A stretch of 64,000 nucleotides of DNA from Tepidiformaceae bacterium (GTDB lineage Bacteria > Chloroflexota > Dehalococcoidia > Tepidiformales > Tepidiformaceae): NCBI GenBank assembly GCA_958295975.1, contig OY282446.1:1961289-2025288 (forward strand), read 5' to 3'. The notes under the pieces were generated by a model. That model was not told the origin of the DNA, made no database searches, and saw only the letters and a program-made list of their open reading frames with translations. Both the position numbers and the translations under genes were made by a program. Below, piece by piece: positions 3,251 to 62,952 of the stretch (position 1 is its first letter; each line of letters begins with the position of its first letter).

Positions 3251-3260
3251 CACGGGGTGG

Positions 3261-4454
3261 CTAGCCTTCGCCGCCAGCGTCTTCGGTTTCGGCCTCGCCT
3301 TCGCCCGCTTCGGCCTCTTCGGCTTCGGGTTCCTCGGCGGGCGGGGCCTCGCCGGGAATGGCCGCGTCCTCCTCGACGACGAGCGCGCCGAGCATGGTGT
3401 CGGGGTGCACGTCGCACCAGAAGGCGTAGCGCCCGGGCGGCGGCGTGGTGAAGGTGAACTCGTGCTGGATTATGCCGGTGGCCAGCTCCGTGCGGAGGTC
3501 GCCGCCGTCGTCCTCGCAGCCCGCCGTGCAGCCCGTGAGCACGGGGCCGTCGCCCGCCGCGTCGCCCGCGTAGAAGACGATGTTGTGGGCCACCGAATCG
3601 TCCTGGTTGTCGAGCACGAAGGTCAGCTCCTCGCCGGGCGGCGCGGCGATCTCCGTGTAGTCGAAGACGCTGGCGCGGATCGTGATCGTGCCCGCGAAGG
3701 GGCCCAGCTCCACGGGGCCGGCGCCGCCGCCCTCGGATGCGGCGCCTTCGCTGGCGAAGAGGGTGAGCCCCGCGCCGATGGCGAAGCCGCCCACCAGCAG
3801 CGCCCCCAGCAGGGTCACGGCCATGCCCAGGCTGTAGCGCACGCTCGTGTCCTTCGTGTCGCGCACCACCTGCATGTCGAACGTCTGCGGCGAGCCCGCC
3901 GCCACCTCGTCGGGGTGCCGCGCCAGCAGGTCGAGGATGGCGCGTTCCGTCTCCTCGAAGGCCGCCAGCTCGTCCGCCGACGACCAGGTCGTCTCCACGA
4001 TCACCTGCGAGGGCCCCCCCGCGGCGGGCGAGACGTTGATGCGCAGGTCCTCGAAGCCGGGCGCGGCGCGCAGGGCGTCGTGCGCCTCCTGGATGGCGGC
4101 GAGGACGCCGCCCTCGCCCGTGGCCGTCTCCAGCTGGCCCTCGGCGATGGCGAAGGTGACGACCTGCGTGCGGCGGGCGTCGCGGCGCTCGCGCTCTTCC
4201 TGTTCGCGCGCCTTCTGGCGCATGCGCCCGTCCTCGTAGCCCCAGCCGGCCACGGAGAAGAGCGTGAGCGCGGCGGCGGCGCCGAGGAGCGGCCCGCTGA
4301 GCCCGCGCTGGTCCTCCACGCGCGCCCACCACACGAGCGCCGCCACCAGCAGCATGGCCGCCAACCCGACCATGAAGGGCCAGACGCTGGGGTCGGGCAG
4401 ATGCACCCCGGGCCCGACGTGGGCGTCGTGTTCGCCGCCTGCTTCCTGCGCCAC
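3261..4454 (-). CDS. Fused membrane protein: two TM spans, ABM-like domain, cupredoxin domain
   Basis: A 397-residue last gene of the cytochrome oxidase operon, starting at GTG 24 bases after coxC. Visible parts in order: two membrane spans at about 27-45 and 52-70, as in small cox subunit IV proteins; a charged helix at 74-95; a region at about 96-200 that resembles the ABM/dimeric alpha-beta barrel fold; a third span at about 213-238; a cupredoxin domain at 250-360; and an acidic Pro/Glu/Ala tail. The cupredoxin has type-1 copper ligands in the right order: His290, Cys347, His350 and Met354. Its position suggests a membrane-tethered copper electron carrier to or from the oxidase. The combination is unusual, and the role of the middle domain is unknown. 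Confidence 0.7.
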   Translation of the reverse strand: MAQEAGGEHDAHVGPGVHLPDPSVWPFMVGLAAMLLVAALVWWARVEDQRGLSGPLLGAAAALTLFSVAGWGYEDGRMRQKAREQEERERRDARRTQVVTFAIAEGQLETATGEGGVLAAIQEAHDALRAAPGFEDLRINVSPAAGGPSQVIVETTWSSADELAAFEETERAILDLLARHPDEVAAGSPQTFDMQVVRDTKDTSVRYSLGMAVTLLGALLVGGFAIGAGLTLFASEGAASEGGGAGPVELGPFAGTITIRASVFDYTEIAAPPGEELTFVLDNQDDSVAHNIVFYAGDAAGDGPVLTGCTAGCEDDGGDLRTELATGIIQHEFTFTTPPPGRYAFWCDVHPDTMLGALVVEEDAAIPGEAPPAEEPEAEEAEAGEGEAETEDAGGEG

Positions 4455-18541: not shown

Positions 18542-19831
18542 ATGCGCTATTTCCTGTGGACCGTCGGCTGCCAGATGAACGTGGCGGACAGCAAGAAGCT
18601 GGCCGCGGGCTTCGAGCGCCTCGGCCTCGAGCGCGCCCCCGACGCCGCCAGCGCCGACGTCGCCGTGGTCAACACCTGCAGCGTGCGCCAGCACGCCGAG
18701 GACCGCGCCGCCTCGATGCTGGGGCGGCTGCGCCTGCTCAAGGAGGCGCGCCCTGCCTTCAAAATCGCCGTCATGGGCTGCATGGTGGGCCCGCGCGCGG
18801 AGGCGCTCGAACGGCGCTTCCCCTTCGTCGACGCCTTCGCGCGGCCCCAGCAATTCGCGCCCGTGCTGGCGCTGGCGGAGGAACCGGCGGAGGACCTCGG
18901 CGGCGAATTCTGGCCCTCCACCTTCGCCGCGCCCGACGGCCCCACCGCGTTCGTGCCCGTCGTCCACGGCTGCGACAAGTTCTGCACCTACTGCATCGTG
19001 CCCTACCGGCGGGGCCGCGAGCGCAGCCGCCCCATCAACGAGATCGCGCGCGAGGTCGCCTGGCTCACGGCCCGCGGCGTGCGCGAGGTGACGCTGCTCG
19101 GCCAGACCGTCGAGGCCTACGGCCACGACCTCGACGGCCAGCCCGACCTCGGTGACCTCATGCGCGCGCTCTCCGCCGACGAGCGGCTGGCGCGCATCCG
19201 CTTCCTCACTTCCTATCCGAAGGACATGACCGCCCGCATCCTCGCCGCCGTGGCCGGGCTGCCGAAGGTGATGGAGTGCTTCTCGCTGCCCGTGCAGGCG
19301 GGCAGCGACGCCGTGCTCGCCTCCATGCGCCGCGGCTACGCGAAGGCCGGGTACGTGGCCAAGGTGGCCGAGGTGCGCGCGCTCATGCCCGACGCGGGCA
19401 TCACCACCGACATCATCGTGGGCTACCCGGGCGAGACCGAAGCCGACTTCGCGGAGACGCTGGCGCTGCTGGAGGAACTGCGCTTCGACAAGGTGCACGT
19501 GGCCGCCTACTCGCCCCGTCCGGGCACCATCGCCCACCGCACGATGGCCGACGACGTGCCCGCCGAGGTGAAAGCGGAGCGCCTCCAGCGCGTGCAGGCC
19601 GTGGAGGAGCGCATCTCGCGCGAACGCAACGCCGCCTGCCTGGGCACCGTGCAGACGATTCTGGTGGAGGGCGTGAACGCGAAGGGCCAGCCCTACGGGC
19701 GCACGCGCGCGGGCCGCCTCGTCCATCTGGACGCGCCCGCCCGCGCGGGCGCGCTCGCGGACGTGCGCATCGAGCACGCGGGTCCCTTCGCCCTGCGCGG
19801 CACGGCGCTGGACGCGCTGGCGCTGGTGTGA
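18542..19831 (+). CDS. miaB: tRNA-2-methylthio-N6-dimethylallyladenosine synthase
   Basis: A 429-residue radical-SAM methylthiotransferase that adds the 2-methylthio group to i6A37 of tRNAs. The three N-terminal cluster cysteines are Cys10, Cys46 and Cys80; the radical-SAM triad is Cys144, Cys148 and Cys151 (GCDKFCTYC, followed by IVPYRRGRERSR). A C-terminal TRAM domain for RNA binding covers about 365-429. Motifs are intact and the length is normal. It lies 24 bases after tRNA-Ser on the same strand and may share its transcript. Confidence 0.94.
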   Translation: MRYFLWTVGCQMNVADSKKLAAGFERLGLERAPDAASADVAVVNTCSVRQHAEDRAASMLGRLRLLKEARPAFKIAVMGCMVGPRAEALERRFPFVDAFARPQQFAPVLALAEEPAEDLGGEFWPSTFAAPDGPTAFVPVVHGCDKFCTYCIVPYRRGRERSRPINEIAREVAWLTARGVREVTLLGQTVEAYGHDLDGQPDLGDLMRALSADERLARIRFLTSYPKDMTARILAAVAGLPKVMECFSLPVQAGSDAVLASMRRGYAKAGYVAKVAEVRALMPDAGITTDIIVGYPGETEADFAETLALLEELRFDKVHVAAYSPRPGTIAHRTMADDVPAEVKAERLQRVQAVEERISRERNAACLGTVQTILVEGVNAKGQPYGRTRAGRLVHLDAPARAGALADVRIEHAGPFALRGTALDALALV

Positions 19832-19846
19832 GGGACGCGGGGGCCG

Positions 19847-20242
19847 TCACGCCATCCGCTCAATGCCCGGGCAGTCGTCGAATTCGCGGTCGAAGCTCAG
19901 GATGCGGCTGATGCCCGCCTCGCGCATGACCGCCACATGCAGGGCGTCCCGCGCGGTGATGGTGTAGGTGGAGCGCAGAACCCCTCTGGCAGCGCGAATC
20001 TCGGCCATGCCGTACCCCAGCACGTCGTCAACGACCGCATCCAGCACCTCGAACGCGGGGTCGATGGCCTCGGTGCGCCGAATCGCCACGTACCGGTGGA
20101 GGATCTCCTGGTAGACCTCCACGTCGGTCACCAGATGCTCTCCGGCGCGTACGAGCTGCCGCAGCAATTCGGCGGCGCGGCCCTTGTTCGGGTGGGGCTT
20201 GCCCACCAGGTACATCGGGATGTTGGAGTCGACGAAGATCAC
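19847..20242 (-). CDS. PIN-domain ribonuclease, VapC-like toxin
   Basis: A 131-residue PIN domain with the expected acidic residues: Asp5 (VIFVDSN), Glu in EVYQEIL, Asp in TARDALHVAVM, and Asp in ILSFDREFD. Such proteins are Mg-dependent RNases that cleave tRNA or rRNA when not neutralised. It starts at GTG and overlaps the upstream small gene by four bases (GTGA), the usual antitoxin-toxin arrangement. The pair sits between miaB and a P450 gene and is a plausible type II toxin-antitoxin module. Confidence 0.87.
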   Translation of the reverse strand: MIFVDSNIPMYLVGKPHPNKGRAAELLRQLVRAGEHLVTDVEVYQEILHRYVAIRRTEAIDPAFEVLDAVVDDVLGYGMAEIRAARGVLRSTYTITARDALHVAVMREAGISRILSFDREFDDCPGIERMA

Positions 20243-30531: not shown

Positions 30532-31344
30532 CTAGCGGGCGAAGGCCGCGCGCATCTCCGCGAGGCGGGCCTCCACGCCCTCGCGCGTGTCCTCGTGCGT
30601 GACCACGTAGAGCGCGTTCGCGCGGATGGCGTCCAGCACGCGCGCCGCCACGTCCTCCGGCGGCATCCCCGCGGCGATGCCCTGGCGGATGGGCTCGGCG
30701 TGCGCGGGCACGTCCTCGGGCCCGCCGAGCGCGTCCGGGCGGTTCCGCCCCGCCTCCACGATGCGCGTGGCCACGCCCCCCGGGCAGAGCACGGAGACGC
30801 CGATGTCCAGCGGCGCGAGGTCCTCGCGCAGGTGCTCGGAGAGGCCCACCACGGCCTGCTTCGAGGCCACGTAGGAGGCCATCCCCGGCGGCGCGAAGAG
30901 GCCCGCGCTGGAGGCCGTGTTCACGATGTGCGCCTCCGTCCCCTGCGCGATCAGGCGCGGCAGGAACTGCGTCACGCCGTTCACCACGCCCCCCAGGTTC
31001 ACCGACATCACCCAGTCCCAGTCGGCGTCGCTCATGTCCGCGGCGTTGCGGAAGGACACCACGCCCGCGTTGTTGCAGAGCGCGTCCACGCTCCCGAAGG
31101 CCGCGAAGGCCTCGTCCGCGAGCGCCTTCACGGAGGCGCGGTCGGCCACGTCCGTGCGCACGGCGATGGCGCGCCCGCCCGCGCCCGCGTCCGCGATGGC
31201 GCCGGCCACGCCGCTGGCCGCGTCGCCGTCGACGTCCGAGACGACGACGTTCATGCCGGTGGCGGCGAAGGCGCGGCAGAGCGCCTCGCCGATGCCGCTG
31301 CCGCCGCCGGTGACGACCGCCGTCCTGCCGGGTCCGAGTTCCAT
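30532..31344 (-). CDS. Short-chain dehydrogenase/reductase
   Basis: A 270-residue SDR with the NAD(P) motif TGGGSGIG, the NNAG strand motif, the catalytic Ser in NTASSAGLF, and the YxxxK pair in YVASKQAVVGL. The residue after strand 2 is Asp (VSDVDG), favouring NAD over NADP. The substrate is unknown. GGAGGTG lies in front of the ATG and a TAAGAT box about 20 bases upstream. It heads the transcription unit that continues into modABC, probably without functional link. Confidence 0.9.
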   Translation of the reverse strand: MELGPGRTAVVTGGGSGIGEALCRAFAATGMNVVVSDVDGDAASGVAGAIADAGAGGRAIAVRTDVADRASVKALADEAFAAFGSVDALCNNAGVVSFRNAADMSDADWDWVMSVNLGGVVNGVTQFLPRLIAQGTEAHIVNTASSAGLFAPPGMASYVASKQAVVGLSEHLREDLAPLDIGVSVLCPGGVATRIVEAGRNRPDALGGPEDVPAHAEPIRQGIAAGMPPEDVAARVLDAIRANALYVVTHEDTREGVEARLAEMRAAFAR

Positions 31345-31792: not shown

Positions 31793-33469
31793 ATGATAGC
31801 TAACGCGGTCCCCCTGCTTTCCTTCCTCCGGAAGGCCCCCCAGTTCATGATTCCGATCTGGCAGCGAACCTACAGCTGGACCGAGCAGGAGTGTGGCAAG
31901 CTGTGGGATGATATCCTGCGTGCGGGATCGGACGATAGCGTTCGCGCCCACTTTATCAATTCCATTGTCTATGTTGAGGAAAGCATTTACAGCGTTACCG
32001 GACACAACCAGTTGCTCGTGATTGACGGTCAGCAGCGCCTGACCACTGCGATGCTGATTCTTGAGGCACTGGCGAGATATATTGGTGATGGAGAACCGGT
32101 GCCCGACTTTTCTGCAGAGAAAATCCGCAATTGGCACCTGATCGTCCCAGAGAACTCTGGAGATCGTCGGTTCAGGCTTGTTCTCACACAAACGGATAAG
32201 CAAACACTGTTTGCGCTGTTGAGCCAGAAATCGCAGCCCAAAGATGTTTCCCGGCGAATAGCCAAGAACTTTGATTTCTTCGAGAAAAAAATGCAGAGTC
32301 ATGACAGTGCTGAGGCTATCTGCAAAGGCCTTGCCAAACTCATGGTGGTCGACATCGCCCTGGATCGCAATCACGATAATCCCCAGCGAATATTTGAAAG
32401 CATGAACTCGACTGGTCTTGATCTAACTCAGTCTGACTTGGTTCGCAATTATCTCCTAATGGGTTTGGAATTTACCCATCAGAAGCAGATATATGAAGAC
32501 CACTGGAGGCCGATAGAGACATCCTTTGGCCAAAAAGACTACAGTTCTCATTTCAATAGGTTTATGCGAGACTACCTAACGCTGAAAACTCGAGAAATCC
32601 CCAAAATCAGCGCAGTCTATGAGTCGTTTAAGGATCATGTTCCTCAGTCCAATATTGATGAAAAGATTTCCGAGGTTCAGAAATATGCTGAGCATTACTG
32701 CGCGATTGCTCTAGAACAAGAAAAAGATGTGGAACTTCTGCAAGCATTCGGAGACATGATGGAGCTGAAAGTTGATGTTGCTCTTCCGTTTCTGCTGGAG
32801 ATGTATGATGATTACGCATCTGGAGATCTAAGTAAAGAGGATTTTCTCTCGGCCATTCGACTGGTGGAATCCTATGTCTTTAGGCGGGCAGTGTGCAACA
32901 TTCCCACGAACACACTCAACAAAACCTTCGCCAATTTCGGACGAGAAATTCGGAAAGACGACTACTTGTCTAGTATCTGTGATCATTTTCGATCCATGTC
33001 CATGAACAATTCCTCTCGAAGGTTTCCTGATGATGCAGAATTCCAGCACAATTTCGTTCACCGTAACAGCTATAATTTTAAAAGGAAGGACTATCTCTTG
33101 CGCCGTCTGGAAAACCATGATCGGAAGGAGCCTGTTTCTATGAATGAATACACGACGGAACATATTCTTCCTCAGAATGAAAATCTTTCTAGTGAGTGGC
33201 AGGATATGCTTGGGCCGGATTGGTTGGATGTGCGGAATCGCTGGCTGCATACTATCGGAAACTTGACGCTGACTGGCTACAATTCTGAATACCGTGATCG
33301 ACCGTTTCAAGAAAAGCGTGACATGACGGGGGGATTTAGGGAAAGCCCTCTGCATCTCAATAAGGGACTTGGTATTCTTGATCACTGGAATGAGGACGCG
33401 ATCAAGGAGCGTGCCGCTAGACTTGCGGCCCGTGCTATGCAGATTTGGTCTGCTCTGCCCGCTCAGTAA
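31793..33469 (+). CDS. GmrSD-type (type IV) restriction enzyme, DUF262-DUF1524 single chain
   Basis: A 558-residue protein with both parts of GmrSD-like enzymes. The DUF262 (ParB/GmrS-like) nucleotide-handling domain has QRTYSW at 24-29 and IDGQQRLTT at 77-85. The DUF1524 (GmrD) His-Me nuclease domain has TEHILPQ with His457 and the matching GNLTLTGYNSEYRDRPFQ near 490. Such enzymes cut DNA with modified bases, for example glucosylated phage cytosine. The gene is visibly AT-richer than its neighbours and lies one or ten bases from them, consistent with horizontal gain. It abuts the halogenase gene with no spacer. Confidence 0.9.
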   Translation: MIANAVPLLSFLRKAPQFMIPIWQRTYSWTEQECGKLWDDILRAGSDDSVRAHFINSIVYVEESIYSVTGHNQLLVIDGQQRLTTAMLILEALARYIGDGEPVPDFSAEKIRNWHLIVPENSGDRRFRLVLTQTDKQTLFALLSQKSQPKDVSRRIAKNFDFFEKKMQSHDSAEAICKGLAKLMVVDIALDRNHDNPQRIFESMNSTGLDLTQSDLVRNYLLMGLEFTHQKQIYEDHWRPIETSFGQKDYSSHFNRFMRDYLTLKTREIPKISAVYESFKDHVPQSNIDEKISEVQKYAEHYCAIALEQEKDVELLQAFGDMMELKVDVALPFLLEMYDDYASGDLSKEDFLSAIRLVESYVFRRAVCNIPTNTLNKTFANFGREIRKDDYLSSICDHFRSMSMNNSSRRFPDDAEFQHNFVHRNSYNFKRKDYLLRRLENHDRKEPVSMNEYTTEHILPQNENLSSEWQDMLGPDWLDVRNRWLHTIGNLTLTGYNSEYRDRPFQEKRDMTGGFRESPLHLNKGLGILDHWNEDAIKERAARLAARAMQIWSALPAQ

Positions 33470-39406: not shown

Positions 39407-40663
39407 ATGAAGGTTCACGAATACCAGGCGAAGGAACTCTTCGCGCGGTACGGCGTCGAGGTTCCGCGGGGGCGCGTGGCCGCCACGCCCGCGGAGGCGC
39501 GCGCCATCGCGGAGGAGCTGGGCGGCAAGGTCGTCGTGAAGGCGCAGATTCACGCCGGCGGGCGCGGCAAGGGCCGCCTCGTGGCGGAGGACGGGACGGC
39601 GGCCATGTTCGCGCGGCTCACCGCCGACGCGGCGGCGCACGAGGGCCAGGTGCGCGGCGAGCGCGTGGGTGGCGTGCGCCTCGCGGACACGCCCGCCGAG
39701 GCCGAACGCGAGGCCGCCAGCATCCTCGGCCACCACCTCGTCTCCATCCAGACCGGCCCCGAGGGCAGGCGCGTGCAGCGCGTGCTCGTCGAGGAGCAGT
39801 CGGCGGTGGCGCGCGAGCTCTACCTCGCCATCATCGTCGACGGCGCGCGCGGGACGCCCCTGATCATGGCCTCCACCGAGGGCGGGCAGGAGATCGAGGC
39901 GGTGGCCGCGCGCGACCCCGACGCGATCGCGCGCCTCGCCGTCAACCCCGCGACTGGCTACGAGCCCTACATCGGGCGCACGCTGGCGGCGCGGCTGGGC
40001 CTCGCCGGGGAGCAGGCGGCGGCCCTCGGCAAGCTCGCCGCGAACCTCTGCCGCGCCGCCGTCGAGAGCGACGCCAGCCTCGCCGAGATCAACCCCCTCG
40101 CCGTCACCGCGGACGGGCGCGTGCTCGCGCTCGACGCCAAGTTCACGATCGACGACAACGCCCTCTTCCGGCACGAAGACCTGGCGGCGTTGCGCGACCG
40201 GGACGAGGAGGACCGCCTCGAGGTGCTGGCCGCCGAGCTGGGCGTGGCCAACTTCATCAAGCTCGACGGCGACATCGGCTGCATCGTGAACGGCGCGGGC
40301 CTGGCCATGGCCACCATGGACACGATCAAGCTGGCCGGGGGCGAACCGGCCAACTTCCTCGACATCGGCACCGTGAACGACCCCTCGCGCGTGGTGAACG
40401 CCATCCGCGTGATCAGCGAGGACCCTTCCGTGAAGGCCATCCTCGTCAACATCTTCGGGGGCATGGCGCGCGTGGACGTGATCGCGCAGGGCGTCATCGA
40501 CGCGGAGCGCGAGCTCGGCCTGAAGCTGCCCGTGGTCATGCGGCTGGTGGGCACGAACCTGGCCGAGGGCGAGCGGCTGCTCGCGGAGGCGGGGCTCGAC
40601 GTCATCCGCGCGGAGAGCCTCGGCGAAGCCGCCGCGAAGGCGGTGGCCGCCGCCCGCGCCTAG
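39407..40663 (+). CDS. sucC: Succinate-CoA ligase (ADP-forming) subunit beta
   Basis: A 418-residue ATP-grasp subunit of succinyl-CoA synthetase ([20 protein letters not shown]). It includes [12 protein letters not shown] for nucleotide binding, the EINPLA metal site motif, and the C-terminal GGxxxxxFxDIGT and [10 protein letters not shown] motifs. It makes ATP from succinyl-CoA in the TCA cycle together with SucD; sucD is not next to it and lies outside this window. A GGAGG Shine-Dalgarno precedes the ATG. It shares a CTAG stop with the convergent gene. Confidence 0.94.
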
Positions 40664-43013: not shown

Positions 43014-43853
43014 ATGCCGATCCTGCGTGTTGCCTTGGCCCGGGTGTTGCGCGACGAGAATGCTCCCGTCTCGTTCTTCGAGGAGGATTTTCGTGATGCG
43101 CTCCTGAAGGCGTTGAACCCTGAAGTCTCTGTGGAACGGTATAGTCGGCATTGGCGCCTGTCGCAGCCGCTTCATGAGGGCGCATGGGTCACTGGTCGGC
43201 TGGGCTTTCTTGATCCGACTGTGACTTCGGGTATCGACTACAGTGAAGACACCCGAGATTTCGTTGAGATTGAAGAACAACACAGGGGAGGAACCTTTTC
43301 GAATTTTGCGATCCACATCCCCAGCCAGTACATCATCTTTGAACTCAAGCCGAAGCCTAATGAGATTCTCCCCAATTCTTTCGTTAACGCACTCAAGGCA
43401 ATTCTATCGAAAGATATCTTGGCTCGCCTAACGGCAGAAATGGTCTTTGATTCTGGTAAATTGGACGAATGGCTGGGTTCAGTGGATAAAGTCACTCAGA
43501 TCAAGATTGATCTTCGAAGGCCGAATCCTGATTTCTCTGATCGTCCGGATAGTGTCAAGCAGATTCTCGAGAACACTAATGCAGCAAAAGTGAGAATCGA
43601 GGCTAGGTCCGGGGATGATGGTCTAGAAGTTCAAGACTCTGATCTGCATGAGTATGCAGAGTATGCAGAAGAAGAAGGATACGGTTCAATTAAGGCGACT
43701 GGTGATAGAGCGGGAAAGACTGCAAGGTTTGAGTCTATTCGGCATGTTCCTCAAGAACGTATCGACACTGATGAAGGAGAAGAAAGGAGCTCCATCCTAG
43801 AGAAAATTAAGCAAGTTGGGCAAGGCTTCATCGATGGCCGCCGGAAGAACTAA
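43014..43853 (+). CDS. AT-rich accessory protein, unknown function
   Basis: A 279-residue soluble protein, visibly AT-richer than the genes around it. It has no recognised catalytic motif. A stretch TQIKIDLRRPNPDFSD followed by a helical and acidic region (HEYAEYAEEEGYGSIKATG) faintly resembles DUF4747-like proteins reported near defence genes; low confidence. The ATG has GGAGGG upstream. Its stop overlaps the start of the next, membrane-protein gene (TAATG), so the two form a coupled pair with soluble sensor plus membrane partner layout. Confidence 0.55.
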   Translation: MPILRVALARVLRDENAPVSFFEEDFRDALLKALNPEVSVERYSRHWRLSQPLHEGAWVTGRLGFLDPTVTSGIDYSEDTRDFVEIEEQHRGGTFSNFAIHIPSQYIIFELKPKPNEILPNSFVNALKAILSKDILARLTAEMVFDSGKLDEWLGSVDKVTQIKIDLRRPNPDFSDRPDSVKQILENTNAAKVRIEARSGDDGLEVQDSDLHEYAEYAEEEGYGSIKATGDRAGKTARFESIRHVPQERIDTDEGEERSSILEKIKQVGQGFIDGRRKN

Positions 43854-44404
43854 TGGCTATCTTCTGGAAGATCACGCTGCTGAAATGGAAGTCTCTTCTG
43901 TCGTGGGATATTATGATCCCTATCATGGCAGCTCTTATCCTGTCGCTTGCCCCTAGTCGCTCGGTCCTTACTACTCGATTTGAGACCATTATGATAACTG
44001 AAATTGGAGTCATGATTGCGATCATCGGAGTTTCTTTGGCTTCTCTTGCGATCACTGTCAGTCTTTTATCCGGAAGTCTTCTGCAAATTCTTAGTGAGCA
44101 TGGTCATGGTATCGCTGAGGATATTTGGCCATTCTGGCTGACTAGTGTATTCGCAAGTATCACGGCAATTCTGGGAATATTCAGCTTGTCCTTCATTGCG
44201 AGTGATCCTGATTCTGAAATAGAAATGTGGCTGATCAGGCTATCAACTGGTGTTGTCGGGTTTTTCTTCACTTGGACACTGGTTAGTGTCGTTCAACTTG
44301 TCAGTGTTGTGCGGGATTATGCCGATATTCGTGCTCAATTTCTTCGTATCTCGGTTGAGGAGGCCGTAAGGGAGCGTGCTAGCATGGATGGCGAAGAAGA
44401 GTGA
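43853..44404 (+). CDS. AT-rich four-span membrane protein, unknown function
   Basis: A 183-residue membrane protein with hydrophobic segments at about 16-33, 48-75, 88-113 and 125-150, and a short charged C-terminal tail. It overlaps the upstream gene by one base. No family is recognised. Small membrane proteins coupled to a soluble partner occur as effectors in abortive-infection systems, but this is inference. A terminator-like hairpin lies just downstream. Confidence 0.55.
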   Translation: MAIFWKITLLKWKSLLSWDIMIPIMAALILSLAPSRSVLTTRFETIMITEIGVMIAIIGVSLASLAITVSLLSGSLLQILSEHGHGIAEDIWPFWLTSVFASITAILGIFSLSFIASDPDSEIEMWLIRLSTGVVGFFFTWTLVSVVQLVSVVRDYADIRAQFLRISVEEAVRERASMDGEEE

Positions 44405-44678: not shown

Positions 44679-45944
44679 CTGAACCCCCGCCGCCTCTTCT
44701 ACGGCTGGTGGATCGTCGGCGCGGGCGTCGTCATCAACGCCCTCGTGGGCGCGCTCTTCATGCACGCCTACGGCACCTACGTGGCCGTCTTCAAGGACCA
44801 CCCCTCCGGCTTCGGCTGGAGCAGCTCCATGCTCGCGGGCGGCTACTCCGTGGTGCAGGGGACGAACGGCGTCATCGGGCCGCTGCAGGGCTGGCTCACG
44901 GACCGCTTCGGCCCGCGCGCCATCATCCGCATCGGGCTGATGCTGTTCGGCGGCGGGCTCATGCTCTTCAGCCGCATCGAGTCGCCCGCGCACTTCTTTC
45001 TGGCGCTGATCGTGATCGCCGCCGGGCTCAGCCTGGGCGGCTTCCTCTCGCTCATCGTGGCGGTGGTCAACTGGTTCGAGCGGCGGCGCGCCACCGCCAT
45101 CAGCTTCCTCACGGGCGGCTTCGCCCTCGGCGGCGCGCTCCTCCTCCTCACGGCGTTCGGCATCGAGACGTTCGGCTGGCGCACGACCGCGCTCGCGTCG
45201 GGGATGCTGGCCATCGGCGTGGGGCTGCCCGTCTCCCAGCTGGTGCGCCACCGCCCCGAGGACCACGGCTACCAGGTCGACGGCGGCCCCGCGCCCGACG
45301 CCCGCGAGGCCGCGCCCGGGGCCGTCGCCGCCGTTTCCGCGGCGGACGACGGCTTCACCGTGGGCGAGGCCCTGCGGACGCGCCAGTTCTGGTTCATCTC
45401 GCTCGGCCACGGCGCGGCCCTGCTCGTCATCTCGGCGGTCATGGTCCACCTCGTCACGCATCTCACGGAGAGCCTCGACTACTCCCTCTCGCGGGCGGCC
45501 ATCGTCACGCTGGTCATCACCATCGCGCAGGTGACGGGCACGCTCGCGGGCGGCTTCTTCGGCGACCGCGTGAGCAAGCGCGGCATCGCCATCGCGGCCA
45601 TGCTGGTGCAGGGCGCGGGCCTGATCCTGCTGGCCCTGTCGGGGGCCGTCTGGCTCATCTTCCTCTTCGCCGCCGCCCACGGCTTCTCCTGGGGCATCCG
45701 CGGGCCGGTGATGCTGGCGCTGCGCGCCGATTACTTCGGGCGGCGCGACTTCGGCAAGATCATGGGCCTCTCGCAGCTGGTGATGACGACGGGCATGATG
45801 AGCGGCCCCCTCTTCGCCGGGATCATGCGCGACCTGCTGGGCGATTTCGAGATCGGCTTCATCGTGCTCGGCCTGCTCGCCGCCGCCGGATCGCTCTTCT
45901 TCGTGTTCGCGCCGAAGCCCCGCCGCCCCCTCGCGGGCGCGTAG
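44679..45944 (+). CDS. Major facilitator superfamily transporter, probable CTG start
   Basis: An MFS permease of about 421 residues with 12 predicted spans. It starts with the conserved RRLFYGWWIVGAGVVINA of oxalate/formate-type and monocarboxylate-type MFS proteins; GWLTDRFGPR is the loop 2-3 motif. GTG 44745 is the first ATG/GTG in frame but lies inside the first membrane helix. The conserved YGWW segment upstream requires a start at or before CTG 44679. Substrate unknown, perhaps a carboxylate. It directly precedes a VOC gene that has its own -10 box inside this gene's end. Confidence 0.82.
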   Translation: MNPRRLFYGWWIVGAGVVINALVGALFMHAYGTYVAVFKDHPSGFGWSSSMLAGGYSVVQGTNGVIGPLQGWLTDRFGPRAIIRIGLMLFGGGLMLFSRIESPAHFFLALIVIAAGLSLGGFLSLIVAVVNWFERRRATAISFLTGGFALGGALLLLTAFGIETFGWRTTALASGMLAIGVGLPVSQLVRHRPEDHGYQVDGGPAPDAREAAPGAVAAVSAADDGFTVGEALRTRQFWFISLGHGAALLVISAVMVHLVTHLTESLDYSLSRAAIVTLVITIAQVTGTLAGGFFGDRVSKRGIAIAAMLVQGAGLILLALSGAVWLIFLFAAAHGFSWGIRGPVMLALRADYFGRRDFGKIMGLSQLVMTTGMMSGPLFAGIMRDLLGDFEIGFIVLGLLAAAGSLFFVFAPKPRRPLAGA

Positions 45945-49004: not shown

Positions 49005-49559
49005 ATGGCGAGGCGCGCCGCCGTGATCCCGCTGCTTGCCGCCGTGGCCGTGGCGCTGGCCTGCGGCGGCGGCGCGACCGCCCCGGAGCCGTCGCCCGTC
49101 CGCGCCACGCCCGCCGTCGCCACGGCCACGGCGGCCGCGCCCGGCTGGTGGGAAGCGGACACGGCCACGCCCGACGCCGCCCGCCCCGACTCCCGCATCT
49201 GGAACGTGCGCGCGGAGGAGACCGCGCCGGGCGAGGCGGCCCTCTCCTTCGACTACTTCCTCTCGCTCGCGCCGGAGGCCAACGTGTTCGTGCACATGGG
49301 CTTCGATCCCGACGTGGCGATCACGCTGCTCGACGCGGCGGGGGAGACGCTGGGCGGCGTCTCGGGGATCCTCCAGCCGACGGAGTTCGGCGACGACACG
49401 GTCGGCGGCGCGGCCAGCTTCACCCTGGCCGCCGCGCGCTTCGCCGACATCGAGGCCGCGCGCATCTGCATCCGGGTGTTCACCGGCGACTACTCGGAGT
49501 TCATGGGCCGCCCGGAGCTCCTCTGCGAGCCCTTCCCCGTGGAGCGCGGCGGGCCCTAG
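49005..49559 (+). CDS. Lipoprotein of unknown function
   Basis: A 184-residue exported lipoprotein with an N-terminal signal and lipobox-like Cys (AVALACGGG), then a Pro/Ala/Thr linker. The mature part (LSFDYFLSLAPEANVFVHMG; ASFTLAAARFADIEAARICI) has a beta-rich look and two late cysteines. Family unknown. The start could also be GTG 49002. The stop is a CTAG shared with the convergent monooxygenase gene. Confidence 0.6.
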   Translation: MARRAAVIPLLAAVAVALACGGGATAPEPSPVRATPAVATATAAAPGWWEADTATPDAARPDSRIWNVRAEETAPGEAALSFDYFLSLAPEANVFVHMGFDPDVAITLLDAAGETLGGVSGILQPTEFGDDTVGGAASFTLAAARFADIEAARICIRVFTGDYSEFMGRPELLCEPFPVERGGP

Positions 49560-52433: not shown

Positions 52434-54173
52434 ATGCCCTTCGAGCCGCTGCCGCTGGCCGTGTCCGTGCGCACGCAATCGCGCGCGGGACCGCCGCTGG
52501 CGCGCCTGCTCGCGGCGCTCGGCGTCGGGGAGACGGCGGCGGACGGCGCGCCGTGCGTGTGCGTCTGCGACGAGGGGGAGGCCCCGGCGGACGGCGCGCA
52601 CGCCTGCGTGCGGCTGGCCGCGGACGAGGACGCCTTCGCGCGGGCGCGGCGCATCATCGGCGCGCGCAACCCCTCCCCGCGCCACGCCGACCGCGGCCTC
52701 ATGCCCCCCGCCGGGCACCTCGCGGGCGTGCTCGCGGGGGCGGCGGCCTCGGCGGCGCTGCTGCAGGCCCTGGCCCTCGCCCGCGGGGAGCGCCCCGCCC
52801 CCGCCCGCGTCGGCGTCGAGCCGCTGGCGCTCCACCTGATCCTGCCGCTCGTCTCCGCGCGCTCGGCGGGGTCGAGCGGCATGCCCGTGCGCACGCCCAC
52901 GCCCGCCGCGCCCCTCGTCTACCCCTTCGGCATCACGCCCTGCGCGGACGGCGAGGTGGGCGTGTACCAGGCCGTGCCGACCGAGTGGCCGCGCTTCTGC
53001 GCGCTCATCGGGCGCGAGGACCTCGCGGACGCCTACCCCACGGTGGAGTCGCGCCGCGAGCACGGGGCCGCCATCCTCGCCGCCGCCGATCACTGGCTGC
53101 GCGCGCATACCGCCGACGAGGCGGTGCGCCTCGCGCAGGCGGCGGCGCTGCCCTGGGCGCCCGTGGCGACGCTCGACGCCCTGTCCGAATCGCCCTACCT
53201 GCGCCGTCGCGGCGTGACCGGCCCCGATGCGGGCGCGCCCTGGCGGGTCGAACGCGCCGCCGCGGAGGCCGCGCCCCATCCCGACCGCGAGGCCGTGCGC
53301 GCGGCGCTCGCCGCCGCCCTGCCCGCGCCCGTGCCGGGGCCGCTCGCGGGCCTCATCGCGGTCGAGGTGACGCAGCACTGGGCGGGACCGCTCGCCGCCC
53401 GCCTGCTCGCCGACCACGGCGCGCTCGTGCTCAAGTGCGAGCCCCCGACCGGCGACTTCTGGCGCAACGGCGGCGCCCTGCGCGACGGCTCCGGCGACTC
53501 CTGGACCTTCGAGCCGATCAATCTGGGCAAGGGCTCCATCGCCCTCAACCTGCGCGACGCCGCCGACCGCCGTCTGCTGGAAACCCTGCTGGGGGCCTGC
53601 GACGTGGTCGTCGAGAACCTGTCGCGGGAGGCGCGGCGGCGCGCGGGCCTCGATTTCGCCGCCCTCGCCGCGCGCAACCCGAACGTCGTCGCCGTCTCCC
53701 TGCCGGGCTACGAGGCCGGGGGCCCGCTGGCGGACTGGCGCGGCATGGGCTGGTCGTTCGAGGCCGCCTCCGGCTACGCCTCCGCGCTCGGCGGCGGTGC
53801 GCCCGCCAACTCCGGCTTCCCCTACGGCGACCCCATCGGCGCGCTCACGGCCTTCCTCGCCCTGCTGCGCGAGCTGGCGGGGCGGCGGCTGCGCGGGGAC
53901 GCGGGCGCGGCCCTGCTCGATGTGGGGCAGGTGGCCGCCCTCGCCTGGACGCTCCTCGAACCGCTGCGCACGGGCGAGCGCGGCCCGTCCCTCGCGCCCC
54001 TCGACGACGCCCTCGCGCAGGGCCGCGTGGAGCCGTCCTGGCCGCTGGAGCGCATCCCCACGGCCTCGGGCCGCACGATGGACCACCCCCTCCCGCCGAC
54101 GGGCCTCGCCGCGCAACCCCCACGCCACCGCGCCCCGCTGCTCGACGAGCACGGGGAGGTGCGGGGGTTGTGA
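52434..54173 (+). CDS. CaiB/BaiF CoA-transferase with permuted or fused domains
   Basis: A 579-residue protein with CoA-transferase III parts in unusual order. Residues about 160-270 (YPFGITPCADGEVGVYQ, ADAYPTVESRREH, LPWAPVATLDAL) correspond to the C-terminal small domain of CaiB. A second unit from about 300 (GPLAGLIAVEVTQHWAGPLA, HGALVLKCEPP, FEPINLGKGSIALNLR) is the N-terminal CoA-binding half, with FPYGDPIGAL giving the likely catalytic Asp. The first 90 residues look like a worn remnant of another N-terminal half. It may be a degenerate tandem fusion. Substrate unknown. Confidence 0.72.
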   Translation: MPFEPLPLAVSVRTQSRAGPPLARLLAALGVGETAADGAPCVCVCDEGEAPADGAHACVRLAADEDAFARARRIIGARNPSPRHADRGLMPPAGHLAGVLAGAAASAALLQALALARGERPAPARVGVEPLALHLILPLVSARSAGSSGMPVRTPTPAAPLVYPFGITPCADGEVGVYQAVPTEWPRFCALIGREDLADAYPTVESRREHGAAILAAADHWLRAHTADEAVRLAQAAALPWAPVATLDALSESPYLRRRGVTGPDAGAPWRVERAAAEAAPHPDREAVRAALAAALPAPVPGPLAGLIAVEVTQHWAGPLAARLLADHGALVLKCEPPTGDFWRNGGALRDGSGDSWTFEPINLGKGSIALNLRDAADRRLLETLLGACDVVVENLSREARRRAGLDFAALAARNPNVVAVSLPGYEAGGPLADWRGMGWSFEAASGYASALGGGAPANSGFPYGDPIGALTAFLALLRELAGRRLRGDAGAALLDVGQVAALAWTLLEPLRTGERGPSLAPLDDALAQGRVEPSWPLERIPTASGRTMDHPLPPTGLAAQPPRHRAPLLDEHGEVRGL

Positions 54174-54175
54174 TT

Positions 54176-54292
54176 GACGGCTGATCAAGCCGTCCCTATT
54201 GATGGCGCAAGAAACCGAGAATTTTCTTGGGGTGCGAAGTTTGTGATAGGAGAACTTTTAAAAACTCCTGTGCAGTGGAATATTGACCACTG
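54176..54292. repeat. Cluster of four inverted repeats (stem-loops)
   Basis: Four short palindromes follow each other in 117 bp: GACGGCT/AGCCGTC (54176-54182 with 54188-54194), CAAGAAA/TTTCTTG (54208-54214 with 54223-54229), AGGAG/CTCCT (54248-54252 with 54265-54269) and CAGTGG/CCACTG (54273-54278 with 54287-54292). The region lies between two convergent genes and is AT-rich. It may be a pair of terminators, a structured RNA, or an ancient insertion edge. Confidence 0.55.
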
Positions 54293-54309
54293 TGGAGAGT
54301 ATAGCGATG

Positions 54310-55068
54310 CTATTGAATGCGCTTGATACTCATATCAGGGGAAAAGTGCTCTCGGGATGAGTAATTTCTTTCCTCCCAAACTCGCAGCAAATGGTTTGGA
54401 TTAACCAGCAAGAGTGAATCCGGCTGATGGATGGATTGAAGCTTGATACAAGACTTGAAGGTGTACGCTCCTCCAGCTCTGCTGGGGAATTCCAGAGATA
54501 TCTGAGGGCTAGCAAATGCGAAAGGAGCCTTGTCTGCGAGAAATAGAGCACATCCTTCCGGAAACTTAGGAACAGAATAGCATTTGGTGCCTTCGATTGC
54601 GAATCCCTCAGGTGCATCACGCATTAAAAAGCCCTTGGTGTTGGTGACGAAGTCGATGTGCAGATTATCTTCAAGGAACAGGAATCCCCATTCCTCAGAG
54701 AAACATTTGGAGGACATGGCAGCCTTAAAATCATTAGTGTCCGGCCTCTCTGTTCGGGGAAAAGAAAAATACAAAGCATTCCCCATGGCCTCGATCGCTC
54801 GCCGCCAAATCTCCGTGGCGAAGTTCGCCGCGATACTCTCCAAGCTGGAAGGCATAGCGTAAGTGGCGGAGTTTTCTTCCGGGATCGAATACTGGCCAGT
54901 GATCAGGTACCCGTGCGGCGAAGCGTCCGTCCCAAACGTGATGCTGAACATGTCATGAGCCATCCTACGATTCGGGTCATCGGTGAAGGCCTTGCTGAAC
55001 GCACCTTCGTACAGAGAACGCAGCTCCTCCTGCTCATACGGCTTTTTCGTGAAGTCATCGATCAGCAT
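54310..55068 (-). CDS. AT-rich accessory protein, unknown function
   Basis: A 252-residue protein, clearly AT-richer than the purine-synthesis genes beside it. It has no obvious signal peptide or membrane span. Segments such as EEWGFLFLEDNLHIDFVTNTK and GCALFLADKAPFAFASPQIS suggest a beta-rich fold. I cannot name a family. AGGAAAA precedes the ATG at moderate distance. It is followed by the hairpin cluster and may be a horizontally acquired single-gene unit. Confidence 0.55.
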   Translation of the reverse strand: MLIDDFTKKPYEQEELRSLYEGAFSKAFTDDPNRRMAHDMFSITFGTDASPHGYLITGQYSIPEENSATYAMPSSLESIAANFATEIWRRAIEAMGNALYFSFPRTERPDTNDFKAAMSSKCFSEEWGFLFLEDNLHIDFVTNTKGFLMRDAPEGFAIEGTKCYSVPKFPEGCALFLADKAPFAFASPQISLEFPSRAGGAYTFKSCIKLQSIHQPDSLLLVNPNHLLRVWEERNYSSREHFSPDMSIKRIQ

Positions 55069-55125
55069 CGTCAGATTTTCCTGCGTCTGTGCGTCTGCGT
55101 CAACATCCTCACCGAGTCTGTTCCC

Positions 55126-55587
55126 CTACCCCGACTGCGCGGCGCGGAAGGCGGCGTAGGACTCGCGCACATCCGGGTGGGCGAGGGAGAGGATGGCGGC
55201 GGCCAGGTAGGCGGCGTTGCGCGCGCCCCAGCCCCCCACCGCCACGCCCGCCACGGGCACGCCCGGCGGCATCTGCAGCACGCCGAAGACAGCGTCCAGC
55301 CCGCCCGCCACCTCGCTCGTGGCCAGCGGCACGCCGATGACCGGCAGCGTCGTCTGCGCGGCCACCGCGCCGGGCAGGTGGGCGGCCCCGCCGGCGGCGC
55401 AGATGACGACGCCGATGCCCGCGTCCGCCGCGCCGCGCGCGAACTCGCGCACGCGGTCGGGCGTGCGGTGCGCGGACATAACGTGCGTCTCGAAGGGGAT
55501 GCCGAGCGACTCCAGCGCCTTCTCCGTCGGTTCCATGAGGGGCGCGTCGTTCCTCGATCCCATGAGGATGGCGACGAGCGCGCTCAC
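55126..55587 (-). CDS. purE: 5-(carboxyamino)imidazole ribonucleotide mutase
   Basis: A 153-residue PurE, which moves CO2 in purine synthesis (N5-CAIR to CAIR). It shows VAILMGSRNDAPLM at the start, MSAHRTPDRV with the catalytic His, GGAAHLPGAVAAQTTLPVIG, and the late GGWGARNAAYLAA segment. A partner PurK is not present. It starts at GTG overlapping the purD stop by four bases, so both are translated together. Confidence 0.94.
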   Translation of the reverse strand: MSALVAILMGSRNDAPLMEPTEKALESLGIPFETHVMSAHRTPDRVREFARGAADAGIGVVICAAGGAAHLPGAVAAQTTLPVIGVPLATSEVAGGLDAVFGVLQMPPGVPVAGVAVGGWGARNAAYLAAAILSLAHPDVRESYAAFRAAQSG

Positions 55588-56864
55588 GTCCGGGGTCCGA
55601 TCGTGGCTGCGATGTCGTTACGCATGAAGACCCCCTTGAAGTAGATACGGCGCGCGTTGTCATAGGCCCGTTCCCGCGCCTGGATGAGCGTGGGCGCGCG
55701 CGCGACGACGGTCAAGACGCGCCCCCCGTTCGTGACCACGCCGCCGTCGGCCTCCTTCGTGCCCGCGTGGAACACGCGCGCGTCGGGGTCCACGTCGTCG
55801 AGCCCCTCGATGCGGTGGCCGGTGGCGTACGGGCCCGGGTAGCCGCCGCTGGCGAGCACGACGCCGACGGCGTGCTCGTCCGACCACGCCACGGCGGCGT
55901 CCGCGAGCCTGCCCTCGGCGGCGGCGCGGCAGAGGGCGAAGAGGTCGCTGTCCAGCCGCGCCATGAGCACCTGCGCCTCGGGGTCGCCGAAGCGCGCGTT
56001 GAATTCGAGCACGCGCACCTCTTCCGGTTGCGTGATCATCAGGCCCGGGTAGAGCGTGCCCGTGTAGGGGCGTCCGGCGGCGGCCATGCCCGCGATCGTG
56101 GGGGCCACCACCTCGCGCTCGATGGCGGCGGTCAGCGCGGGCGTCATCAGGAGGCCCGGGCTGACCGCGCCCATGCCGCCGGTGTTGAGGCCATGGTCGC
56201 CGTCGAGGGCGCGCTTGTAGTCGGTGGCGGAGGGCGTGAGCACGGCGGTGTGGCCGTCGCAGATGGCGTGGGCGCTCGTCTCCCAGCCGCGCAGGCGCTC
56301 CTCGACGACCACCTCGTCGCCGGCCTCGCCGAATTCGCGCCGCACCATGATGGCGTGGAGGGCGGCGAGCGCCCCCTCGCGGTCGTCGCAGACGAGCGCG
56401 CCCTTGCCCGCCGCCAGACCGCTGGCCTTGACCACCAGCGGGCGCTCCGCGCCGTCGCCGACGTACGCGGCGGCTTCGGCGTGGTCGCGGAAGACGCGGA
56501 AGGGCGCGGTGGCGATGCCGCGGTCGGCCATGAATTGCTTGGCCCAGGCCTTGCTGGCCTCGATGGCGGCGGCGGCGGCGGTCGGTCCGTAGCAGGGCAG
56601 GCCGCGCGCGCGCAGGCGGTCCACCAGCCCCAGCGGCTGAGGGTCGTCCATGGTGGCCAGGTAGAAGTCGATGTTGAGGTCGCGGGCGGCGTTCACCAGC
56701 CCGTCGATGTCGCGCGGGGAGACGGACACGTTCGTGGCCACCTGGGCCGTGCCCGCGTTGCCGGGCGCGACGTAAATCTCGTCGACGTCGGGGCTCTGGC
56801 GCAGCTTCCAGGCGATGGCGTGCTCGCGCGCGCCCATGCCGGCCAGCAGCACGCGCGCGCCCAT
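55584..56864 (-). CDS. purD: Phosphoribosylamine-glycine ligase
   Basis: A 426-residue ATP-grasp ligase joining phosphoribosylamine and glycine in purine synthesis. It opens with VLLAGMGAREHAIAWKLRQS, has YVAPGNAGTAQ, the ATP-grasp KASGLAAGKGA loop, and metal residues in EFNARFGDPEAQ. The length is normal. It follows guaA by 25 bases on the same strand and is itself coupled to purE, so the three form a purine operon. Confidence 0.94.
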   Translation of the reverse strand: MGARVLLAGMGAREHAIAWKLRQSPDVDEIYVAPGNAGTAQVATNVSVSPRDIDGLVNAARDLNIDFYLATMDDPQPLGLVDRLRARGLPCYGPTAAAAAIEASKAWAKQFMADRGIATAPFRVFRDHAEAAAYVGDGAERPLVVKASGLAAGKGALVCDDREGALAALHAIMVRREFGEAGDEVVVEERLRGWETSAHAICDGHTAVLTPSATDYKRALDGDHGLNTGGMGAVSPGLLMTPALTAAIEREVVAPTIAGMAAAGRPYTGTLYPGLMITQPEEVRVLEFNARFGDPEAQVLMARLDSDLFALCRAAAEGRLADAAVAWSDEHAVGVVLASGGYPGPYATGHRIEGLDDVDPDARVFHAGTKEADGGVVTNGGRVLTVVARAPTLIQARERAYDNARRIYFKGVFMRNDIAATIGPRT

Positions 56865-60376: not shown

Positions 60377-61963
60377 ATGGCCGAGCCGAACTTCGCGAAC
60401 CGCACGCTCTTCCACGGGGACAACCTCGCGTTCCTCAAGAAGCTGGACACGGGCACGGTCCATCTCATCGCCACGGACCCGCCCTTCAAGAAGGGCCGCG
60501 ACTTCCATGCCACGCCGGACAGCCTCGCCGCCGGGGCCTCCTTTCAGGATCGCTGGAGCTGGGAGCGCGACGTCCACCAGGACTGGGTGGACCAGCTCAT
60601 GGATGACTGGCCCGATGTGCTTCATGTCATCGAGGGATCGCGCAAGTCGTACGGCGACGACATGGGCGCGTTCCTGTGCTTCATGGGCGTGCGCTTGCTG
60701 GAGATGCGCCGCGTGCTGCGCGACGACGGCACCATCTACCTTCACTGCGACCACACGGCCAGCCACTACCTCAAGGAATTGATGGACGCCATCTTCAAGC
60801 GCAGGAACTTCCGCAACGAGATCATCTGGCAGCGAACGATCACGAGGAAGGGAAACCTGACTCGCGGGATCGCGGAGGATACCGACACGATCCTGCGGTA
60901 CAGCAAAGGCAAGCAGTTCACCTGGAACAGCGAAGCGGTGACCGCGCCGTACGATCTGGAAGAGCTTGATGAAAAGACGAGGCAAAAATACAGCCAGAAG
61001 GACAAGGACGGCAGACTCTACCAGTTGACGGCTATCACTTCGCCAACCCAGGAACCGCAGTCTCCCCGCACCTATGAGGTGATGGGAGTTACCCGAACGT
61101 GGCGGTGGACGAAAAAGCGCATGGAGCGGGAGATAGCAGAGGGAAGAATCGTCCAGACGAAGCCGGGCAACGTTCCGCGCCAGATTCGTTATCTGGACGA
61201 ACAGAAGGGGAAGACGCTCAATAACGTGTGGGTGGACATCCCCGCGATCAATTCGCAGGCGCGCGAACGGACCGGCTACCGGACGCAGAAGCCGGTCGCC
61301 CTCTATGAGCGCATCATTCGCGCGTCCTCCAATCCCGGCGACATCGTGCTCGACCCCTTCGCGGGATGCGCCACCACCTGCGTCGCCGCCGAGCGACTGG
61401 GCCGCCAGTGGGTGGGCATGGATATCTGGGACAAGGCGCACGAGACCGTCCTCCATCGGCTGGAGGCGGAGGGCCTGGCCTCTCCCGACGGGAGCAATGG
61501 CGAGCGGCTGCTCACCTTCGGCCAGATCCACTACGCGACGGAGCCGCCCGCGCGCACGGACGACGGCGAGGAGGCCGTGCCCTTCCTGCGCCTGAAGGTT
61601 CGGCGCGCACTAGAGCGCTGGCAGCGCCTGCCACGCGCGCGGATCGCCGAGTACCTCGTGGAGGCGCAGGCGAAGGACCAGAACGGGGAGGTTATTTGCG
61701 CGGGCTGCGGGCGCGTGCTCGAACCCGAGTTCATGCACCTCGATCATGTCCTGCCGCGTAAGGATGGTGGCGTGAACGATATCACGAACCGCATCCTGCT
61801 CTGCCCGCCTTGCAACGGGCGCAAGGGCGCGAACCTGACGCTGAGCGGCTTGGTCCGTGAGAACAAGAAGGTTGACTGGATGCGCGATGAGCAGCTGGCG
61901 AAACTGGCGCAGCACAACGCACGCGCAATGGCCGAGCGTGTCCGTGTCGAGCTGTCGGGGTAG
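60377..61963 (+). CDS. DNA methyltransferase (beta class) fused to HNH nuclease, copy 2
   Basis: A 528-residue paralogue of the protein at 25185. The N terminus (NRTLFHGDNL, LIATDPPF, DFHATPDSLAAG) and the SAM-binding part (YRTQKPVALYERIIRASS, DPFAGCATT) are close to copy 1, while the region at about 150-280 is almost unrelated, as expected for a different target-recognition domain. The C terminus has the same HNH domain with two CxxC knuckles (CAGCG, CPPCN) and LDHVLPRKDGG. The middle is AT-richer than the ends. It sits directly after pgk. Confidence 0.87.
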   Translation: MAEPNFANRTLFHGDNLAFLKKLDTGTVHLIATDPPFKKGRDFHATPDSLAAGASFQDRWSWERDVHQDWVDQLMDDWPDVLHVIEGSRKSYGDDMGAFLCFMGVRLLEMRRVLRDDGTIYLHCDHTASHYLKELMDAIFKRRNFRNEIIWQRTITRKGNLTRGIAEDTDTILRYSKGKQFTWNSEAVTAPYDLEELDEKTRQKYSQKDKDGRLYQLTAITSPTQEPQSPRTYEVMGVTRTWRWTKKRMEREIAEGRIVQTKPGNVPRQIRYLDEQKGKTLNNVWVDIPAINSQARERTGYRTQKPVALYERIIRASSNPGDIVLDPFAGCATTCVAAERLGRQWVGMDIWDKAHETVLHRLEAEGLASPDGSNGERLLTFGQIHYATEPPARTDDGEEAVPFLRLKVRRALERWQRLPRARIAEYLVEAQAKDQNGEVICAGCGRVLEPEFMHLDHVLPRKDGGVNDITNRILLCPPCNGRKGANLTLSGLVRENKKVDWMRDEQLAKLAQHNARAMAERVRVELSG

Positions 61964-61989
61964 GGCGTGGTAGTGCCTATCTGTAGTTT

Positions 61990-62859
61990 TCACGATCCCT
62001 GCGGTATGTTCCGTGGCGGGACTAGGGATTTCTCTGCCCACTTGTCATAAACGAAGTCAAAAAAACCATCGATTGGACGCAAGGTGGACCGAACTATCTC
62101 ATAAAGTTCTCGCCCCGCTACAGTAAAGAGAGCGTTGTTCACATCCATATTTTTCTGTTCTTTCAGATCAATTTCAACGACTTTCCCAAAATAATCAGCA
62201 CGTATAGTCCTACTAGACGGCTGTATAATGAATCCAGCAACACCGTTATATCGGAGAATCCCAATGTCTTCAAGGTGCTTTATTGTGAGAAAATCAATTC
62301 CTTGATTGTGATAAATTGGGTTCGTATTAATGTCTGAAGAATCAATAACAGGGATCTTCATAGAGTTGATCACCCAGACATACCTACAGACACTAGCGAA
62401 CAATTCTGCTTCTCCTTTCCCAAGATCCTCCATGATATTGACTGTCTTTCTCGAGAAAGATCCGGGGTGGTTTGCTTCGCCAGCGAGGATGCGCGCCCAC
62501 AGGTCCTGCATCTCTTCATCAGAGATCAGCCGTGCTTTCTCAAAGAAATTGATGATCCAGTCCTGCTCCATTTCGTGGGGCGAAGCGTTGTCTTGATCAA
62601 GATGGGGAACGGATTTATCAAGAATCAACTCCATGTTCCTCTGGCGCGTCATTTCTTCGATATTGGCACGATAACGCGCTCTCTCATGCAGGCTTTGCAC
62701 ATCGATTTCAGTCTGAGCACGAATGAGGCTAACATCAGCCTCAGCCTTCGCGTTCCGGCGCATTTGCCACGGTCGGAGCAGTCCTCCCACAGCATCCGAC
62801 GCGCGCTTGGCCAAAACGGCTGCGGGCATGCCTGCGCCCAACGCCACCAGTTCTTCCAC
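61990..62859 (-). CDS. DUF2806-like protein
   Basis: A 289-residue protein matching the DUF2806 pattern: helical N terminus, QRNMELILDKS, DWIINFFEKARLISDEEMQD, LWARILAGEANHPGSFSRKT and a C-terminal alpha/beta part. The function of the family is unknown. Its gene is strongly AT-rich. Start is uncertain: GTG 62859 or TTG 62862, the latter being seven bases after GAGGGGG. It converges on the methyltransferase-HNH gene with 26 bases between stops, so the two may have been gained together, though this is not shown. Confidence 0.75.
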   Translation of the reverse strand: MEELVALGAGMPAAVLAKRASDAVGGLLRPWQMRRNAKAEADVSLIRAQTEIDVQSLHERARYRANIEEMTRQRNMELILDKSVPHLDQDNASPHEMEQDWIINFFEKARLISDEEMQDLWARILAGEANHPGSFSRKTVNIMEDLGKGEAELFASVCRYVWVINSMKIPVIDSSDINTNPIYHNQGIDFLTIKHLEDIGILRYNGVAGFIIQPSSRTIRADYFGKVVEIDLKEQKNMDVNNALFTVAGRELYEIVRSTLRPIDGFFDFVYDKWAEKSLVPPRNIPQGS

Positions 62860-62952
62860 CAAGGGCTGGCCCCCTCGCTTAGACGAATCGCTAACGCTAA
62901 GGACTCTACCACGGCGGCAGGATACCGTCGCGCCCCTACGCGCCCCGCGCCG

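Follow-up and report, generated by a model that had tools for sequence, protein, structure and literature searches.

A foreign insertion places a cluster of hairpins between two converging genes in a Tepidiformaceae bacterium: a possible two-way transcript-end signal without a U-tract

A compact cluster of hairpins, whose structure is real and strongly non-random, separates the stop codon of a family III CoA-transferase gene from that of a converging orphan gene (252 aa) in the genome studied here. Our preferred reading, to which we assign a probability of roughly 0.45, is that these hairpins arrived with the imported orphan gene and act as a 3'-end signal, for termination or stabilization, that works in both directions and lacks a U-tract. 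If this is correct, foreign DNA would have brought its own two-way transcript-end signal to a junction whose stop codons overlap in relatives, which would be one way in which an imported gene is tolerated at such a junction. At present, the locus represents a single well-formed and solitary case. All coordinates below refer to the window, meaning the whole stretch of DNA that was analyzed (64,000 nucleotides), and the features of the locus are as follows.

52434-54173, + strand: family III CoA-transferase gene, the left flank, about 11 residues shorter at the C terminus than in L014 (a locus of a same-genus relative)
54174-54309, no strand assigned: hairpin-rich gap that separates the converging stop codons, 136 bp, 46% GC, the left part of the insertion
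54176-54194, no strand assigned: hairpin 1, stem of 7 bp, 2 nt past the CoA-transferase stop codon
54195-54250, + strand: predicted long interrupted stem-loop, which contains the previously noted repeat at 54208-54229 in a different pairing
54248-54269, no strand assigned: hairpin 3, perfect stem of 5 bp, an alternative to the three-way junction
54249-54354, no strand assigned: predicted three-way junction, built around hairpin 4 plus a stem at 54297-54331, that overlaps the orphan's 3' end; arrangement not firm
54273-54292, no strand assigned: hairpin 4, perfect stem of 6 bp, 17 nt past the orphan's stop codon on the - strand
54310-55068, - strand: orphan gene, 252 aa, 50% GC, outside known families
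55075-55103, - strand: promoter-like site ahead of the orphan gene, matching the consensus at 9 of 12 bases (1 found, 0.4 expected)
55126-55587, - strand: purE (AIR carboxylase), the right flank

A preliminary description of this DNA had reported four perfect inverted repeats, with stems of 7, 7, 5, and 6 bp, within 117 bp beside an AT-rich gene, had considered their density high for chance, and had proposed folding against shuffled sequence as a check. These points were borne out. The repeats lie at 54176-54194, 54208-54229, 54248-54269, and 54273-54292, separated by 13, 18, and 3 nt; dinucleotide shuffles of the same 117 bp contained a mean of 0.68 such repeats, and none of 1,000 reached four. 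The adjoining open reading frame is that of the orphan, at 50% GC in a window of 71% GC. Folded as RNA, 54174-54294 reached -44.8 kcal/mol on the + strand (z of -5.3, equaled or bettered by none of 200 shuffles) and -31.2 kcal/mol on the - strand (z of -3.4, equaled or bettered by 1 of 200). In addition, a scan of the window on both strands in 532 consecutive segments of 120 nt, with 24 shuffles per segment, ranked 54174-54293 on the + strand first (z of -6.6; runner-up, -5.3), and a finer scan of 120-nt segments across 53900-55339 found the signal only in segments within about 54080-54380. The second most unusual fold of the window, at 44694-44813 on the + strand (z of -5.3), coincides with the beginning of the gene for an MFS transporter (44745-45944) and could be a leader structure.

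Comparison with the same genus indicates how the cluster came to lie where it does. The search covered nine genomes including that of the host, and seven of the eight relatives had a readable junction (loci L014 to L020), the eighth (G003) being represented by a contig-end piece without the junction (L021). In all seven readable relatives, the stop codons of the CoA-transferase gene and purE overlap as CTAG, with nothing between them. At the host locus, by comparison, the shortened CoA-transferase gene is followed by about 950 bp of DNA with 50% GC. Because the relatives' genes overlap at CTAG with nothing between, the orphan and the hairpins evidently form one insertion of about 0.95 kb, found, among the genomes read, in this one only; it seems to begin directly after the sequence GTGA. 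The preliminary description had held that lack of conserved pairing in relatives, together with lack of a transcript, would speak against a structured element, and the first half of this is what we found, the sequence being absent from all eight same-genus relatives (junction read in seven).

The single gene of the insertion looks like a real one. Of 2,000 shuffled versions of the island, 2 contained an open stretch of at least 252 codons. At the three codon positions, GC was 0.49, 0.43, and 0.59 for the orphan versus 0.76, 0.55, and 0.97 for purE, which is what a coding frame acquired from a donor of middling GC should show. The protein had no match in Pfam, NCBIfam, PHROGs, or PADLOC, and no relative in the genome, viral, plasmid, or phage collections. 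Several marginal matches were judged to be chance: the best among PDB sequences (E of 0.16), one further match in its own genome (E of 0.027, 23% identity), one among 60 relatives (E of 0.085, with internal stops), and one of 50 residues among 393 genomes of the class (E of 0.006). Across 400 genomes of the phylum, the protein matched only itself. A structure predicted without an alignment had a mean pLDDT of 40 and was set aside.

The folding potential, rarity, position, and insertion of the cluster are observed; its transcription and its role in ending or protecting transcripts are what we infer. About 0.95 kb of foreign DNA carrying one gene, the orphan, would have entered where two converging genes meet, taking the place of the final CoA-transferase codons and delivering a hairpin cluster that fills the gap between the two stop codons. 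The cluster would then act at the RNA level, as a 3'-end signal lacking a U-tract that serves transcripts arriving from either side. From the left, the CoA-transferase message would reach hairpin 1 at 2 nt past its stop codon; from the right, the orphan message, possibly a purD-purE-orphan transcript (the gene beyond purE is one that we take to be purD from its translation), would reach hairpin 4 at 17 nt past its stop. The hairpins may pause or release polymerase, shield 3' ends from exonucleases, and keep the opposing transcripts from colliding. Non-random folding on both strands argues for such a signal, as do the placement of the cluster between converging stops, at distances of 2 and 17 nt, and the fact that the insertion moved apart converging units whose stop codons overlap in relatives.

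Several observations point the other way. On both strands, every one of the four hairpins is followed by 8 nt with 0 to 3 T, and no terminator-like site was found within 54174-54309, the one found nearby (54475-54456) lying inside the orphan gene, with 1.5 expected by chance. A canonical Rho-independent terminator is thus ruled out, since no U-tract follows any hairpin on either strand. The double terminator offered in the preliminary description is accordingly not supported in its canonical form on either strand, whereas a two-way 3'-end element without U-tracts fits the position between converging stops. In addition, the + strand folds better than the - strand, which would be unexpected if the element chiefly ends the orphan message. 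Finally, the 100 nt that follow 40 host genes had a mean z of 0.03, the orphan's being the lowest at -2.6, although these gene calls are rough and some are wrong (e.g., an antisense frame over the CoA-transferase gene). The host seems to make no use of such clusters elsewhere, and this one therefore looks like cargo rather than a host habit.

A 3'-end signal of this kind has partial counterparts in published systems. For 13 genomes, Gupta and Pal (2021; PMC8355165) proposed that hairpin clusters lacking U-tracts and close to stop codons, mostly within 80 bases of the stop, serve as terminators; Chloroflexi and some other phyla were omitted there because data were lacking. The present cluster is alike in having several close hairpins just past stop codons with no U-tract. 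By the measures of that study, a distance of at most 80 nt past the stop compares with 2 nt for hairpin 1 and 17 nt for hairpin 4 here, and a spacing of less than 15 nt compares with 13, 18, and 3 nt between the perfect repeats; two hairpins were the commonest arrangement in that set and counts dropped with size, so that four is large. The symmetric hairpins between converging stops also recall bidirectional terminators between converging genes (Ju, Li, and Liu, 2019), from which the present cluster differs in having no A-tract or U-tract on either side. Counting against a 3'-end signal, part of a cyanobacterial study (PMC13289151) describes transcript ends without U-tracts as broadly inconsistent with intrinsic termination.

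The shape of the predicted fold bears on whether the cluster instead encodes an RNA of its own. On the + strand, hairpin 1 (54176-54194) is predicted to come first and the interrupted stem-loop (54195-54250) second. The prediction then gives either hairpin 3 by itself or a three-way junction, closed by pairing of 54249-54270 with 54336-54352 and containing hairpin 4 together with the stem at 54297-54331. The pairing of the repeat at 54208-54229 is preferred by DNA energies and not by RNA energies. Beyond the four repeats, the predicted fold runs into the orphan's last 14 codons and may extend to about 54354 as the three-way junction, which by itself had a z of -3.7 on the + strand and -3.4 on the - strand, in an arrangement of the right half that shifts with the chosen end point and is not firm. 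Composition does not fully account for the better folding of the + strand, equal asymmetry having arisen in 3 of 300 shuffles of 54174-54294 and in 13 of 300 shuffles of 54174-54345, and this asymmetry leans mildly toward a + strand RNA.

The preliminary description had also named a structured noncoding RNA and the RNA component of a small system as options. Transcription of the + strand from 54174 to about 54354 into an independent structured noncoding RNA, which would act by itself or together with the orphan protein in a small RNA-protein module of, for example, the defense or toxin-antitoxin type, would agree with the greater stability of that strand (z of -5.3 versus -3.4), with the elaborate predicted fold, and with the defense-like genes found in other AT-rich parts of the window. 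We nevertheless consider it unlikely, given that 53800-55700 contains no promoter-like site on the + strand, that Rfam gave no match and searches by DNA and by a single-sequence covariance model gave no homologue, and that the right half of the fold varies with its end point. That the insertion is a compact and undescribed two-part module, in which a structured + strand RNA of about 180 nt lies tail-to-tail with the 252-aa protein and serves possibly against phages, is very unlikely; were it so, it would constitute a new RNA-protein module.

Among described structured RNAs, we tested HEARO, the omega RNA of IscB and IsrB (RF02033), because the insertion seems to start right after GTGA. HEARO elements follow a GTGA-type motif, and HEARO RNAs without a nuclease gene exist; the potential for structured RNA at the edge of the insertion, directly after GTGA, is similar. 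Unlike HEARO, however, the insertion carries no HNH/RuvC nuclease gene, and its sole gene has no Pfam match and lies on the opposite strand. RF02033 had no match in this genome or in local scans, and 0 of 60 genomes exceeded the cutoff. HEARO was set aside on this miss, and the absent nuclease gene weakens the reading further. Since RF02033 matches the 5' regions of 65% of HEARO nucleases in the figures excerpted from PMC9755519, the miss alone weakens a HEARO reading and does not close it.

The hairpins could also have acted as DNA, with single-stranded folds that helped the delivering element to integrate, replicate, or be transferred. Folding as single-stranded DNA was equally unusual on the two strands (z of -4.7 on + and -4.9 on -), and the cluster sits at one end of the insertion, both of which would suit a DNA-level site. 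The remaining evidence makes this decidedly unlikely. The best inverted match between the approximate ends of the insertion (6 bp) was equaled in 604 of 2,000 shuffles and the best direct match (5 bp) in 1,203 of 2,000, and with end matches at chance level no terminal repeat or target duplication is evident; furthermore, the insertion contains no recombinase or transposase gene, and the genome has no second copy. An insertion sequence or MITE was rejected, the end matches being at chance and no further copy being present in the genome. Integron cassettes have an attC site with core sites RYYYAAC and GTTRRRY. The present arrangement of one orphan gene with a region of inverted repeats 3' of it resembles such a cassette, but it consists of several short hairpins rather than one long imperfect one, and an attC site was rejected because RYYYAAC and GTTRRRY are absent on both strands at 54150-54380.

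Relatives of the hairpin region were sought by several routes. Rfam contained no known RNA family that matched at the locus. A DNA search of 60 genomes, including that of the host, gave matches with E up to 1 in 15 of them, which apart from the locus itself were only 15 to 31 bases long with E of 0.056 or worse, and a DNA search of plasmids and phages gave none. Neither 247 bases of DNA nor R1, a covariance model built from the single sequence that is weak and misses distant relatives, detected a second copy in the host's own genome, and R1 recovered only the host locus when run over two overlapping sets, 294 class genomes and 400 phylum genomes. Patterns for hairpin 1 and for hairpin 4 each had 0 matches in viral contigs. 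A looser hairpin-1 pattern selected 42 stretches in genome contigs, over which R1 gave 22 matches, the best of which (E of 0.0016, in L069) compressed 101 nt onto 172 positions and was judged to be chance; by R1 and by BLAST of the insertion, the part shared with these 42 never exceeded hairpin 1 and the adjacent bases. With the cluster found in one genome only, its conservation cannot be shown, and it may be read as a relic or an accident, that is, a structured leftover of the donor that has no function here. We regard this as rather unlikely: 0 of 1,000 shuffles matched the repeat count and the segment ranked first of 532 over two strands, so that pure accident is improbable, the status of a relic apart.

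The insertion is not the only AT-rich stretch of the window. At least three others well below window GC carry defense-like or family-less genes, and an anti-phage role of the orphan is conceivable by association with them; no sequence was shared among the AT-rich stretches of the window beyond chance. A GmrSD gene at 31793-33469 on the + strand (about 44% GC) has both GmrSD restriction endonuclease domains (Pfam E of 5e-34 and 3e-24). An AT-rich pair at 43014-44404 on the + strand encodes a protein of 279 aa, whose DUF4747 match falls below the cutoff, followed by a membrane-like 183-aa protein with no Pfam match. Within 60377-62868, the gene for an HNH-containing DNA methylase (+ strand) converges on an AT-rich DUF2806 gene (- strand, 61990-62868) that also has a weak Abi_alpha match.

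Closely converging genes recur elsewhere in the window. By crude gene calls, nine converging pairs were found, of which three overlap by 4 nt and two are separated by gaps of 10 and 15 nt, the other four having gaps above 800 and being left out. The close pairs, at 3250-3261, 19831-19847, 30532-30535, 40660-40663, and 49556-49559, resemble, within the limits of these calls, the CoA-transferase/purE junction of the relatives.
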